Shown piece by piece: positions 43,745 through 48,171 of a DNA stretch of 64,000 bases. Position numbers and translations under genes: made by a program. The notes below the pieces were generated by a model. It saw only the letters and a list, made by a program, of their open reading frames with translations, was not told the DNA's origin and made no database searches. The stretch is from contig JAVKGX010000001.1 in NCBI GenBank assembly GCA_031432545.1, positions 578,411-642,410 of the forward strand, given 5' to 3'. How positions within the stretch are numbered: position 1 is the stretch's first letter; each line of letters starts with the position of its first letter. The stretch is from Armatimonadota bacterium (lineage in GTDB: Bacteria; Sysuimicrobiota; Sysuimicrobiia; Sysuimicrobiales; Sysuimicrobiaceae).

Positions 43745-43999
43745 ATGTGTACCGGCTTTCCCATGCGCGTACTGGCGGTCGACTGCGATCAACTGCTGGC
43801 GCGCGTCGCGTACGGCCAAGGCGAACAGGACGTGACGATCGCGACGCTGGACCAGGAGATCGCCCCGGGCGACTGGGTGCTCGTCTATCTGGGGATGGCG
43901 GTGAGCAAGCTCACCGAGCGTGAGGCCGCAGACATCATCGCGTTTTACGAGCACGGCCGCGTGCCGCCGATCGGAGGAACCGGTGATGAAAAAGATTGA
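43745..43999 (+). CDS. HypC/HupF-family small protein lacking the conserved His
   Basis: 84 residues. ATG 43745 is chosen because HypC proteins begin Met-Cys and the N-terminal Cys is their cofactor ligand: here MCTGFPMRV. The core ARVAYGQGEQ, APGDWVLVYLGMAVSKLTER follows the family. Canonical HypC has a His (VLVHxGFA) that helps bind the Fe(CN)2CO unit; here that place is Tyr48. No hydrogenase or other hyp gene is present. It overlaps the next gene by 14 bases, so the pair is translated together. Confidence 0.75.
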   Translation: MCTGFPMRVLAVDCDQLLARVAYGQGEQDVTIATLDQEIAPGDWVLVYLGMAVSKLTEREAADIIAFYEHGRVPPIGGTGDEKD

Positions 44000-44744
44000 T
44001 CGTGGACGGGGAGCGTTGCTGGCGGCGCAGTTCAGCTTCATGCCCAACCGGCTCGGTTTGTGCGGGCCCGACGCCAACGAGGTGATGCTCGGTCACCTCG
44101 TCGACCGCCACGCGGACCGCGAGCTCGAAGAGGTCCTACGCGGCTTTCACGGCGCTTATCCCTATCTGCACTTCATCGCGTACGCATCGGGAATCCGCGA
44201 TCCGTTCGACCCCCGCGTGACGGAGGCGTACTGGATCGGCAACGAGCTGTTGGAAAGCGTGTCGATGGACGACTTCCACGTCCATTTGCGCGAGCGGTTC
44301 GAGCGACGCTTCCCACCCAAGCTGTTGGACGCGCTGCTCGGCCACGTCCCCGCCGGTGCGCACGCCCACCACAACTTCCACGTACTGGCGATGCCCCTGC
44401 GCACCGGCCACCAGGAGGTGCCGCACACGCTTGCGACGATGGACGCCTGTCGCGTCAGCTGGGGGCGGGTGCAGGCGGTTGTGGGCGACGACCTGCTCGT
44501 CGAACGCCGTCCGCTGGTGCTGCGCGACGGTGCGCTGGCCCTGGGCGATCCCCAGACGCAGGTCGTGAAGTGGCGATTCGGCGGCAAGGCGTTCTGCCAG
44601 CCCCGGCCCGGCGATGCCGTGGCGATCCACTGGGGCTGCGCGTGCCAGCGGCTGAGTGAACGCCAGCTCCGCCACCTCGTCCGCGAGACGCGGCGTCATC
44701 TGGGGATCGCCAACGCCCGCAAGGCCAACGTCGTGTTCCGCTGA
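43986..44744 (+). CDS. Uncharacterised His/Cys-rich protein paired with the HypC-like gene
   Basis: 252 residues from ATG 43986. I recall similar proteins (possibly DUF6390) next to hypC genes but am not certain of the family. Candidate metal ligands: C26 (RLGLCGPD), H126/H128/H129/H132 (AGAHAHHNFHV), C204 (AFCQPRPGD), H215, C218 and C220 (IHWGCACQRLS). There is no signal peptide or membrane helix, so it is cytoplasmic. FHGAYPYLHFIAYASG looks like a conserved core. Overlap with the HypC-like gene suggests a complex or joint handling of a metal cofactor; the function is unknown. Confidence 0.65.
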   Translation: MKKIDRGRGALLAAQFSFMPNRLGLCGPDANEVMLGHLVDRHADRELEEVLRGFHGAYPYLHFIAYASGIRDPFDPRVTEAYWIGNELLESVSMDDFHVHLRERFERRFPPKLLDALLGHVPAGAHAHHNFHVLAMPLRTGHQEVPHTLATMDACRVSWGRVQAVVGDDLLVERRPLVLRDGALALGDPQTQVVKWRFGGKAFCQPRPGDAVAIHWGCACQRLSERQLRHLVRETRRHLGIANARKANVVFR

Positions 44745-44758
44745 CCGAGAGCCGTACC

Positions 44759-46327
44759 ATGCGCTCGTTCGGTGCTCGACCCCTGGTGCTGTTGGCTGTG
44801 GCGGCGCTGGCTGCGGTGCCGGTCGGCGCGCAAGCGCAGCCTCCTTTGCGCATCGCGTGGTGGACCGACGTCGGTTTCCCCACGCCGTTCGCCTTCTCGA
44901 CCCTTGGCCCCGGCGGCGTCGTCCGTCTGACGCTTTTGTACGACACGCTGGTATGGAAGGACGAGCGTGGCCTGATCCCCTGGCTGGCCGAGTCATGGCG
45001 TGCGAGCCCGGATGGGCGGGCGTACGTGTTCACCCTGCGCGGCGGCGTCCGCTGGCACGACGGGCGAGAACTGACCGCGCACGACGTCAAGTTCACCTTC
45101 GACTACTACCGCAAGCACCCCTTCCGGTGGGTCGATGTGTCCATCGTCACCGCGGCGGAGGTGCGCGACCGCCGGACGGTCGTGCTGCGTTCGCGCGAAC
45201 CGTACGCGCCGTTTTTGGAGAACGTGGCCGGTGTGGTGCCGATCGTCCCGCAGCACATCTGGCGGGACGTCACACAGCCGGAGCGCGCGCAGGAGTTGCG
45301 TTTTGCCATCGGATCGGGGCCCTACCGGCTGGCCGAATACCGTCCGGAGGCTGCGCAGTACCGCTTCGTAGCGTATGACGGCTACTTCCGGGGCCGCCCC
45401 GTGGTGCGCGAGATCCACTACGTGCTGGTCCCCACCGCACGCCAGGTGCTGGCGGTGCAGAGCGGGCAGGTGGACGTGGGGCACGCAACGACCTACGACG
45501 TCGTGGGTTTGTTCGCGAGCCATCCGTACCTGCGGGTGATGCAAACCGAACCGCTGTCGATCGCGCGGCTGATCTTCCACATGGACCGTCTCCCCACCAG
45601 CCACCGCTCCTTCCGTCGGGCCGTGGCGCACGCGCTGGACCGCCGAAGGATCGCGGAGACGATCACGCGGGGTCCGGCGCCGGTGGGCAGCCCCGGGGTC
45701 GTCCCCCCGACCGACCCGTGGTACAACCCAAACGTCGCAGACTACCCGCACGACCGCGACCGGGCCCGCGCCCTGCTGCGCGAACTGGGCTACATGGACC
45801 GCGACGGCGACGGCTGGCTGGAGGCCCCCGACGGTCAGCGGCTGGCGGTCGAGCTGGTCAGCAGCCCGGCGGGCGACCTCCAGCTCGTCCAGCAGATGCT
45901 CGCGGAGGTCGGCATCGACGTGCGGCTGCGTACGGTCGATCCCGCCACGCGCACACAACTCGCCGCGGAAGGCCGTTTCCAGTTGCTGTTCAGCACCCAC
46001 ATCGGCAGCGGCGGCGACCCCGATTACCTGAGGACCTGGTTCGTCGGTGTCGACGCCAACCAGTTCGCAGTGGGCAGCGTCATGCGGTCCCCCACGTACG
46101 CGCGCCTGGCGGAACTGCAGCTGCGGACGCTCGACCCGACCGGCCGGCGTCGGTACGTAGACCAGATGCAGGTGCTGTTGAGCCAGGAACTGCCGACGTT
46201 TCCCCTGTACTACCGCCGCTTCTTTTGGATCTACGACAGTCGCAGGTTCACTCCAGTTGCCACGCGCGGTGGGCTGCTGAACGGGATCCCCCTCGTCGAG
46301 AACAAGCTCGCCTTCCTTTCTCGCTGA
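44759..46327 (+). CDS. Substrate-binding protein, SBP family 5 (importer F)
   Basis: 522 residues. Signal peptide 1-24 (ending VGAQAQ) without lipobox. Lobe I: LRIAWWTDVGFP, VRWHDGRELTAHDVKFTFDY, GSGPYRLAEYRPE; lobe II: FRRAVAHALDRRRIAE and DRARALLRELGYMD. Probably binds peptides or a related solute. It starts 14 bases after the HypC-partner gene, so it may share that transcript; two permeases follow without ATPases. Confidence 0.92.
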   Translation: MRSFGARPLVLLAVAALAAVPVGAQAQPPLRIAWWTDVGFPTPFAFSTLGPGGVVRLTLLYDTLVWKDERGLIPWLAESWRASPDGRAYVFTLRGGVRWHDGRELTAHDVKFTFDYYRKHPFRWVDVSIVTAAEVRDRRTVVLRSREPYAPFLENVAGVVPIVPQHIWRDVTQPERAQELRFAIGSGPYRLAEYRPEAAQYRFVAYDGYFRGRPVVREIHYVLVPTARQVLAVQSGQVDVGHATTYDVVGLFASHPYLRVMQTEPLSIARLIFHMDRLPTSHRSFRRAVAHALDRRRIAETITRGPAPVGSPGVVPPTDPWYNPNVADYPHDRDRARALLRELGYMDRDGDGWLEAPDGQRLAVELVSSPAGDLQLVQQMLAEVGIDVRLRTVDPATRTQLAAEGRFQLLFSTHIGSGGDPDYLRTWFVGVDANQFAVGSVMRSPTYARLAELQLRTLDPTGRRRYVDQMQVLLSQELPTFPLYYRRFFWIYDSRRFTPVATRGGLLNGIPLVENKLAFLSR

Positions 46328-46333
46328 CGGCCG

Positions 46334-47305
46334 ATGGCTGCAGTTGCGCGGACGCACCTGGTACGCCTGGGGGCGGTCGTGGCCGTCCTCGTGGTCGCGA
46401 ACTTCTGGCTGCCACGCCTGCTGCCCGGAAGCCCTCTGGCGGAGGGCACCGCCGATGTGGCCTTCCTGCCGGCTACGGTCCAAGCCGACCTCCGCCGTAC
46501 GTACGGGCTCGACCTGCCGCTCACCGAGCAGTTCCGGTTGTACCTGGCAGGGCTGTTGCGCGGCGACCTCGGCCGCTCGCTGGCCAGCCACCGCCCGGTC
46601 GCTTCCATCCTCGCGGAGCGCCTGCCCTGGACCGGGCTGCTGGTCGGCTGTGCGTTGTTGGCGGCGACGGCGATCGGCGTCACCTTGGGCACGCTCGGCG
46701 CGTGGCGGCCGGGTAGCCGGGCGATCAGGTGGCTGGGACCGGTGGTCGTGGCCGTCGGCGCCCTGCCCGAGTTCCTCGTGGCGATGGTGCTCATCGCGGT
46801 GTTCGGGACGTGGCTACAGCTGCTGCCCGCGGGCGGGGCCGCGACACCCTTCTTTGCAGCAGGCGGGTTGGCCGGGGCGTTGGACGTCGCGCGACATGCG
46901 GTGCTGCCCGTGGCCACGCTCGTTGCGGCCCTGGCGCCGGCCTTCTTCCTGCTGTCCCGCAACGCGCTGGTTGCCGTCATCGGGCAGCCCTACCTGCTGA
47001 CCGCCCGCGGTAAGGGGCTGAGCGAGGGCCGGGTGCTCTGGCACGCGTGGCGCAACGCGCTGCCGCCCGTCCTCACGCTGTTCGGCCTCCGGCTCGCGTT
47101 CGTCGTGACCGGTGCCGCTGTCGTGGAACGTGTCTTCGCCTACCCGGGCATGGGAATGCTGCTGTTCGAGGCGGTGGCGCGGCGCGACTATCCGGTCCTG
47201 CAGGGCATCTTCCTGGTCGCCAGCGCAGCGGTGGTCGCCGTCAGCGTGATGCTCGACCTGGCTGCGGGTGTGCTCGACCCGCGTGCCCGCGAGGAGCGTA
47301 CTTGA
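46334..47305 (+). CDS. Peptide-type ABC transporter permease, DppB family (importer F)
   Basis: 323 residues. LPGSPLAEGTADVAF, YGLDLPLTEQFRLYLAGLLR, GDLGRSLASHRPV, and an EAA loop QPYLLTARGKGLSEGRVLWH with AYPGMGMLLFEAV. The sequence is less like importers A to E than they are to one another. Its stop overlaps the start of the next permease. Confidence 0.92.
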   Translation: MAAVARTHLVRLGAVVAVLVVANFWLPRLLPGSPLAEGTADVAFLPATVQADLRRTYGLDLPLTEQFRLYLAGLLRGDLGRSLASHRPVASILAERLPWTGLLVGCALLAATAIGVTLGTLGAWRPGSRAIRWLGPVVVAVGALPEFLVAMVLIAVFGTWLQLLPAGGAATPFFAAGGLAGALDVARHAVLPVATLVAALAPAFFLLSRNALVAVIGQPYLLTARGKGLSEGRVLWHAWRNALPPVLTLFGLRLAFVVTGAAVVERVFAYPGMGMLLFEAVARRDYPVLQGIFLVASAAVVAVSVMLDLAAGVLDPRAREERT

Positions 47306-48171
47306 ACGCCGCGCTGGCCGCTGTGGCTCCGCCGCGGACCGCCCGACGGCTGCGGTTTGCCTCCGCGGCACTGGGAGGAGCCGTCGTGGGAGCGTTGGTC
47401 GTGCTGGCTGCTCTCGCCGACGTGCTGGCGCCGCACGATCCGCGGGCACTGTCGGGCCCACTGATCGCCCCACCGTCTGTGCGCCATCCCATGGGGACCA
47501 ACGACCTCGGCCAGGACCTGCTGAGCACGTGGCTGCACGGTGCCCGGGTCTCGCTGGGGGTCGGATTCGCGGCGGCTCTGCTGTCGACGACCCTGTCGGG
47601 AGCGGTCGGCATCCTCTCGGTTACGTCCCGGCCCGCACGAGCGGTGTTGCTGGGCCTGACCGACGTGTTGCTGGCGACTCCCAACCTCCCGCTGCTCGTG
47701 CTGGCGGTGACCCTGATGGGACCGGCGACGTGGCACCTGGTGCCGTTGCTGGCTCTGGTGAGCTGGCCGGCGTACGCGCGTGTCGTGCGCGCTCAGACGG
47801 CAGCGACGGTCCAGTACGACTACGTCCTGGCAGCGCGTGCCGCGGGGGCGACGCCGGGGCGGATCGTACGGACGTGCCTGCTGCCGGAGGTCTTGCCGCT
47901 GCTGTGGACCAAGTTCCTGCTCACGACGCGCTGGGCGATCCTGATGGAAGCGGTCCTGGCGCTGATGGGACTGTCCGACCCCACGCGCGTGAGCTGGGGA
48001 TCCACCCTCAGCGGCGCGTTCGCCTATCCGCTGCTGTTCGTGGGCAATGCCTGGCTGTGGTGGGCGTTGCCGCCCGCGCTGGCGATCGCGGCCGTCACGC
48101 TGGCCCTGTCGGCGATCGGGCAGGACTTCGAGCTGTGGCTCAACCCCGCCGCCCGGTTGCGCCGCCTTTGA
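47302..48171 (+). CDS. Peptide-type ABC transporter permease, DppC family (importer F)
   Basis: 289 residues from TTG 47302, overlapping the preceding stop, with GAGGA six bases upstream. HPMGTNDLGQDLLSTWLHGAR is the DppC motif, and the EAA loop is QYDYVLAARAAGATPGRIVR. Ends WLNPAARLRRL. The promoter of the ileS leader overlaps its 3' end. Importer F has no ATPase genes of its own. Confidence 0.9.
   Translation: MNAALAAVAPPRTARRLRFASAALGGAVVGALVVLAALADVLAPHDPRALSGPLIAPPSVRHPMGTNDLGQDLLSTWLHGARVSLGVGFAAALLSTTLSGAVGILSVTSRPARAVLLGLTDVLLATPNLPLLVLAVTLMGPATWHLVPLLALVSWPAYARVVRAQTAATVQYDYVLAARAAGATPGRIVRTCLLPEVLPLLWTKFLLTTRWAILMEAVLALMGLSDPTRVSWGSTLSGAFAYPLLFVGNAWLWWALPPALAIAAVTLALSAIGQDFELWLNPAARLRRL

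Follow-up and report, generated by a model that had tools for sequence, protein, structure and literature searches.

The enzymes HypD, HypE and HypF make Fe(CN)2CO and are thought to be essential for the iron centre of hydrogenases, with HypD carrying a [4Fe-4S] cluster and a thiol-disulfide motif. Fe(CN)2CO is held on Cys2 of HypC and Cys41 of HypD, possibly together with HypC His51, and almost the same cofactor has been found in every [NiFe]-hydrogenase analysed (PMC12134894). HypC is described as both scaffold and carrier in a second report (PMC9002611). Among open-licence papers, we found no relevant earlier reports on HypD-less maturation or on the maturation of Patescibacteria hydrogenases.

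The locus compared here with these systems lies in the window, the whole stretch of 64,000 nucleotides that was analysed, and comprises two overlapping genes, encoding a HypC-family protein (HypC*) and a protein of the DUF6390 family, followed by transport genes:

43745..43999, plus strand: HypC*, HypC family, 84 aa, with Cys2 kept and Tyr48 in place of the conserved His (PF01455, TIGR00074, alignment to PDB HypC)
43886..43888, plus strand: TAT codon of Tyr48, at the position of the HypC cofactor-binding His (direct reading; alignment to 2z1c/3vyr HypC)
43986..44744, plus strand: DUF6390 protein, 252 aa, with a predicted helical N-domain (~6-135) and HypC-like C-domain (~153-243) (PF19927, AlphaFold2)
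43986..43999, plus strand: overlap of the HypC* and DUF6390 frames, 14 bases (ORF coordinates)
44061..44063, plus strand: codon of DUF6390 Cys26, invariant (87-sequence alignment)
44370..44381, plus strand: segment with the codons of DUF6390 His129 and His132, in a single predicted helix (129-135), HHxFHV (alignment; AlphaFold2)
44442..44714, plus strand: HypC-like C-domain of DUF6390 (hhalign, PDB fold match, PF01455 matches in relatives)
44448..44450, plus strand: codon of DUF6390 Cys155, the putative counterpart of HypC Cys2 (CRxSWGxV against MCLAxPGxV; 87-sequence alignment, profile alignment)
44628..44645, plus strand: DUF6390 His215, the putative counterpart of the HypC His, to Cys220, HWGCAC (alignment; in register with the HypC GDYVxVHxGFA motif)
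44759..46327, plus strand: ABC-transporter substrate-binding protein, nearest NCBIfam model NikA (nickel) (TIGR02294, 156.6 bits, below the cut-off of 393)
46334..47305, plus strand: ABC permease, nearest model the nickel permease Opp2B (217.7 bits, below the cut-off of 350)
47314..48171, start codon provisional, plus strand: second ABC permease, OppC/NikC type (model comparison)

HypC* matches PF01455 with 60.7 bits (cut-off 28.5, E 1.5e-16), which places it in the family, and TIGR00074 with 53.5 bits, above the cut-off of 48; its N-terminus, MCTGFPMRV, has the Met-Cys start that contains the iron ligand Cys2. In the alignment to PDB HypC, the segment PGDWVLVYLGMAV of HypC* is in register with the T. 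kodakarensis HypC segment PGDWVIVHTGFAI; Tyr48 thus occupies the His position and the conserved His of the GDxVxVHxG motif is missing. The original prediction had described a HypC-like protein with a Met-Cys start and Tyr48 for His, a 14-base overlap between the two genes and clusters of His and Cys in the partner, and all of these are borne out, positions 43986-43999 being common to both open reading frames and the clusters reading AHAHHNFH at residues 125-132 and HWGCAC at residues 215-220. Close packing of the HypC* and DUF6390 genes is seen again in other loci, and genes for tRNA-Leu and tRNA-Val lie upstream of the pair in the window.

The 252-aa partner, initially taken to be an unknown protein, matches PF19927 with 215.3 bits (cut-off 25, E 1.2e-63) over positions 4-242 of the 244 in the model; its function is undescribed, as had been supposed, but the protein already belongs to a Pfam family, DUF6390, which was named in no paper found in a literature search limited to open-licence papers. 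Across 87 sequences, Cys26, His129, Cys155 and His215 are invariant (100%), with Cys26 falling inside a retrieval motif and the other conserved Cys and His residues outside such motifs. His132 is present in 99% and Cys220 in 97% of the sequences, and His126 and Cys218 are not conserved among the 87 relatives. The conserved His and Cys residues point to a putative role in metal handling.

Comparison of the DUF6390 C-domain with HypC using hhalign gave 95.8% (E 7e-9), against 0.1% for the N-domain as control. PF01455 matches at E<=1 were obtained in 23 of 71 DUF6390 relatives (best 4e-5), and the single-sequence Pfam score of the window's C-domain against HypC was 13.9 bits, below the cut-off of 28.5. 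The AlphaFold2 model of the full protein (pLDDT 94.5, pTM 0.92) has T. kodakarensis HypC (2z1c) as its top PDB fold match (probability 1.00, TM 0.68 by target length, E 0.03); because this E-value is weak and other OB folds come next, the fold match alone is insufficient for HypC identity. No solved counterpart of the helical N-domain appeared among the first 50 matches listed. The profile alignment places Cys155 on HypC Cys2 and His215 on the HypC His. As judged from profile, predicted fold and weak Pfam matches, the C-domain is a second HypC-like domain, with its Cys and His in register with those of HypC, and since His215 aligns with the HypC His, the residue missing from HypC* is found in its partner.

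The genome of the window (G000) has been assembled into 21 contigs that total 2.19 Mb, with a listed completeness of 100%, and gene absence in it was judged from family searches. These searches returned a single HypC, the HypC* of the window, and found no HypD, no HypA and no HypE or HypF above cut-off. A HypE-like gene of G000 was rejected as HypE, since it encodes an AIR-synthase-type paralogue of 335 aa that ends in WRALERLESEAAGGR and has no C-terminal Cys; HypE-like paralogues occur in 43 of 43 genomes of the phylum, with or without hydrogenase. The initial reading that no hydrogenase or hyp gene lies nearby holds for ~37-52 kb, but a NikABC-like transporter is found directly downstream and a [NiFe]-hydrogenase is encoded elsewhere in the genome, on contig C13. 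The large subunit of this enzyme carries RICGIC and DPCISC. At the start of the contig, a partial maturation-protease gene is followed by the genes for large, small and FAD-type subunits, all on the minus strand, a gene set from which we judge the hydrogenase to be group 3b-like. A full hyp set elsewhere in the genome had been named as the outcome that would refute the original prediction, and here G000 points neither way: a hydrogenase and a sole HypC are present, but HypA, HypD, HypE and HypF were not found. Because the hydrogenase sits at a contig edge (C13:1), the adjoining gap may hide further hyp genes, and no conclusion can be based on this genome by itself.

Among 43 genomes of the phylum, 13 harbor DUF6390, and all 13 encode both a HypC and a canonical [NiFe] large subunit (read from contig fragments in G010), giving a Fisher p of 2e-7 for DUF6390 against [NiFe]-hydrogenase across the 43. 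The pair adjoins the large-subunit gene in most of the 13, the usual order, as in G028, being large subunit, HypC*, DUF6390, HypA and HypB; where a protease gene was recognised, it follows that of the large subunit. Family searches detected HypD in none of these 13 genomes, and HypE and HypF above cut-off in none. Conversely, the five genomes of the phylum with HypD (G004, G005, G012, G017 and G041) all lack DUF6390 (Fisher p 0.0016 for DUF6390 against HypD among the 18 hydrogenase genomes) and all contain HypE and HypF, the HypF of G004 being partial and below cut-off alone. HypA is present in 12 of the 13 DUF6390 genomes (not found in G000), mostly adjoining the pair, and HypB lies beside HypA in nine phylum loci; HypB was sought in the fetched loci and HypE in the phylum genomes. 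Since HypA and HypB are retained and HypD, HypE and HypF are absent, these organisms appear to keep the nickel half of maturation and to lack the known Fe(CN)2CO pathway.

Almost all hydrogenases encoded by the 13 genomes keep the RxCGxC and DPCxxC motifs, the exception being one of those in G001, and the EAPRG arginine motif is mostly kept. The exception, a group-1-like large subunit (L041, G001:C1:808972-810522), reads AQRI*GV*TTVH, with both Cys codons of RxCGxC replaced by in-frame TGA and the Cys residues of DPCMAC intact. Unless this reflects an error, the nickel ligands would include two selenocysteines, or TGA would be decoded as Cys; two selenocysteines at these ligands would, to our knowledge, be unlike known [NiFeSe] enzymes. 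A separate observation concerns G008, a 96% complete genome that encodes a canonical [NiFe] large subunit (L047, G008:C1:112644-113909) without HypD, HypC or DUF6390.

A single-sequence search of genome contigs for DUF6390 relatives gave no match, and an alignment/profile search of GTDB species genomes gave 455 or more DUF6390 stretches. Of these, the 80 best loci belong to Chloroflexota, Patescibacteria, Actinomycetota, Dormibacteria, Sulfobacillus and others, and no DUF6390 was found in phages. HypD is missing in 42 of 50 DUF6390 genomes outside the phylum, one of the 42 being the complete 1.05-Mb chromosome of a Beckwithbacteria (Patescibacteria) (CP011210), and HypF is missing in 43 of 50. 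In 34 of the 42 HypD-less genomes, the fetched locus contains a large subunit with RxCGxC and DPCxxC, all four Cys included. Eight large subunits (L109, L126, L148, L152, L155, L162, L168 and L173) stop exactly at DPCxxCxxH and so have no C-terminal tail for a protease. Thermomicrobium roseum was rejected as a living example of a HypDEF-less organism, as it has HypD, HypE and HypF (PMC2615216).

DUF6390 stands beside a hydrogenase in several phyla, and in several Actinomycetota loci, as in the window, it does not adjoin one. The latter arrangement speaks for the original proposal that the pair may handle a metal cofactor unrelated to hydrogenase. Part of that proposal stands, in that the pair is conserved and its conserved His and Cys residues point to metal. 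A hydrogenase-independent role, on the other hand, is barely credible and was rejected on co-occurrence: every DUF6390 genome of the phylum has a [NiFe]-hydrogenase, mostly adjoining the pair, the association holds across the 43 genomes, and adjacency recurs in several phyla.

A reading of HypC* as an ordinary HypC of a complete Hyp pathway, with HypD, HypE and HypF missed through incomplete metagenome assemblies, draws on the contig-edge position of the G000 hydrogenase and on the many metagenome-assembled genomes in the set. We regard it as very improbable, since HypD is missing from all 13 genomes, which are up to 98-100% complete and include one (G001) in 4 contigs, HypE and HypF are missing from the same 13, and HypD scores above 440 bits in the other genomes that have it. 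The absence of HypD in 42 of 50 genomes elsewhere, one of them a complete chromosome, argues in the same direction, and a plain HypC of a full hyp set was rejected on the absence of HypD, HypE and HypF.

The state of the HypC His also differs between the two kinds of locus. The residue is replaced in 45 of 54 HypCs from DUF6390 loci, by eleven different residues, and kept in nine, whereas it is kept in 7/7 distinct HypD-linked HypCs (p 2.6e-5). Together with the association with hydrogenase, the absence of HypDEF, the retention of HypA and HypB in loci of the phylum and the HypC-like C-domain, this frequent replacement of the His in DUF6390-linked HypCs suggests that HypC* and DUF6390 are probably part of [NiFe]-hydrogenase maturation in organisms without HypD, HypE and HypF, where they would handle the iron moiety. 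The nine DUF6390-linked HypCs that keep the His, and the G008 hydrogenase, which has neither HypD nor DUF6390, run counter to this reading.

HypD is present in seven Actinomycetota DUF6390 genomes and in Sulfobacillus, and complete hyp operons containing DUF6390, with two or three HypC genes, are found in Sulfobacillus acidophilus (Sulfobacillus L171/L203) and on an M. intracellulare plasmid (L204). DUF6390 is thus not always a replacement for HypDEF and can act alongside these enzymes. On the DUF6390 tree, HypD genomes fall in three places, one of them nested among HypD-less Chloroflexota. The Mycobacterium intracellulare plasmid (NZ_CP012886.2, 437 kb) has three HypC genes in its hyp operon, with RuBisCO genes adjoining.

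That DUF6390 occurs together with complete hyp sets and multiple HypCs in Sulfobacillus and Mycobacterium is compatible with the pair being an auxiliary carrier or insertion chaperone that only hands over finished Fe(CN)2CO, with unrecognised, unrelated proteins carrying out the HypD, HypE and HypF reactions. HypC itself is both scaffold and carrier (PMC9002611). Nevertheless, three unrelated enzymes would need replacing, and an all-against-all BLAST comparison of neighbours, on selected ORFs, revealed no conserved neighbour in DUF6390 loci able to replace HypD, HypE or HypF or to make CN or CO. The HypE-like paralogues, present in all 43 genomes regardless of hydrogenase and without a C-terminal Cys in G000, also speak against this explanation, which we consider unlikely.

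Under the preferred reading, in which the pair takes part in maturation, HypC* and DUF6390 would form a complex that takes over the scaffold role of HypC and HypD. The iron moiety, with or without its ligands, could be held by Cys2 of HypC* and by Cys155 and His215 of DUF6390, perhaps with Cys26, His129, His132 and Cys220, and the complex would then hand it to the apo large subunit. HypA and HypB would subsequently add nickel, and the protease would finish those large subunits that have a C-terminal tail. Going further, we tentatively propose, at somewhat less than even confidence, that Patescibacteria, Chloroflexota, Dormibacteria and the window's phylum use a second way of making the iron half of the cofactor, independent of HypDEF and with HypC* and DUF6390 at its core, by new CN/CO chemistry or with differently liganded iron. 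Alternatively, the hydrogenases might carry iron without the usual CN and CO, or with other ligands, inserted by HypC* and DUF6390, with activity that may be low or different. The absence of every known ligand-making enzyme would fit such altered iron, but RxCGxC and DPCxxC are kept in nearly all large subunits (that of G001 with in-frame TGA excepted) and EAPRG in most, and the published cofactor hardly varies among the [NiFe]-hydrogenases analysed (PMC12134894), making this alternative decidedly improbable.

The transport genes next to the pair are of two kinds. The transporter downstream of the pair in the window misses the NikA, NikB and NikC equivalog cut-offs (156.6/393, 145.9/447 and 111.5/358 bits). 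In 16 fetched loci (~13 without duplicates), a homolog of its substrate-binding protein is encoded next to DUF6390 or HypC*; NikABC-like transport genes adjoin the pair in several Chloroflexota as well as in the window's phylum, and this conservation speaks for a part of the pair in maturation. Some 18 other loci, mostly from Patescibacteria, have an EamA-type permease gene placed between those of HypC* and DUF6390, and none of the loci listed for one transporter contains the other. Examples include:

L109 7089-7988: EamA-family permease between HypC* and DUF6390
L124 7124-8020: EamA-family permease between HypC* and DUF6390
L152 7103-8014: EamA-family permease between HypC* and DUF6390
L175 7026-8723: EamA and DUF6390 as one open frame
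L181 7050-8738: EamA and DUF6390 as one open frame

We infer that the NikABC-like or EamA transporter may have a role in nickel supply.

In all, ~47 genomes (13 in the phylum and 34 outside it) encode canonical [NiFe] large subunits, often along with the nickel-insertion genes, but lack HypD, and HypE and HypF where tested, and have one consistent substitute pair. Their hydrogenases would either obtain diatomic ligands by a new route or function without such ligands, which bears on the functionality of the hydrogenases predicted in Patescibacteria. The pair and its associates make up a testable set of few small proteins, which would simplify hydrogenase production in other hosts.

Compared with the HypC/HybG/HupF chaperones (PF01455, TIGR00074), HypC* is alike in length, Met-Cys start, GDWVLV motif, scores above the cut-offs and linkage to [NiFe]-hydrogenase genes, and differs in having Tyr for His, no HypD in the genome and DUF6390 as its partner. 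That partner is a full-length member of DUF6390 (PF19927), a family of undescribed function. Like the NikABC nickel ABC transporter, the operon downstream encodes one substrate-binding protein together with two permeases, and most of their nearest models are for nickel; its scores are below the equivalog cut-offs, however, and no ATPase gene was noted in it (44759-48171). The closest parallel is the HypC-HypD scaffold of Fe(CN)2CO synthesis, which the pair matches in having two partners, one of them a HypC, that offer Cys and His ligands, and in lying likewise beside a hydrogenase operon with HypA, HypB and a protease apparently kept. The two systems differ in that HypD, HypE and HypF are absent here and the partner of HypC* is DUF6390, with its predicted helical domain and second HypC-like domain.
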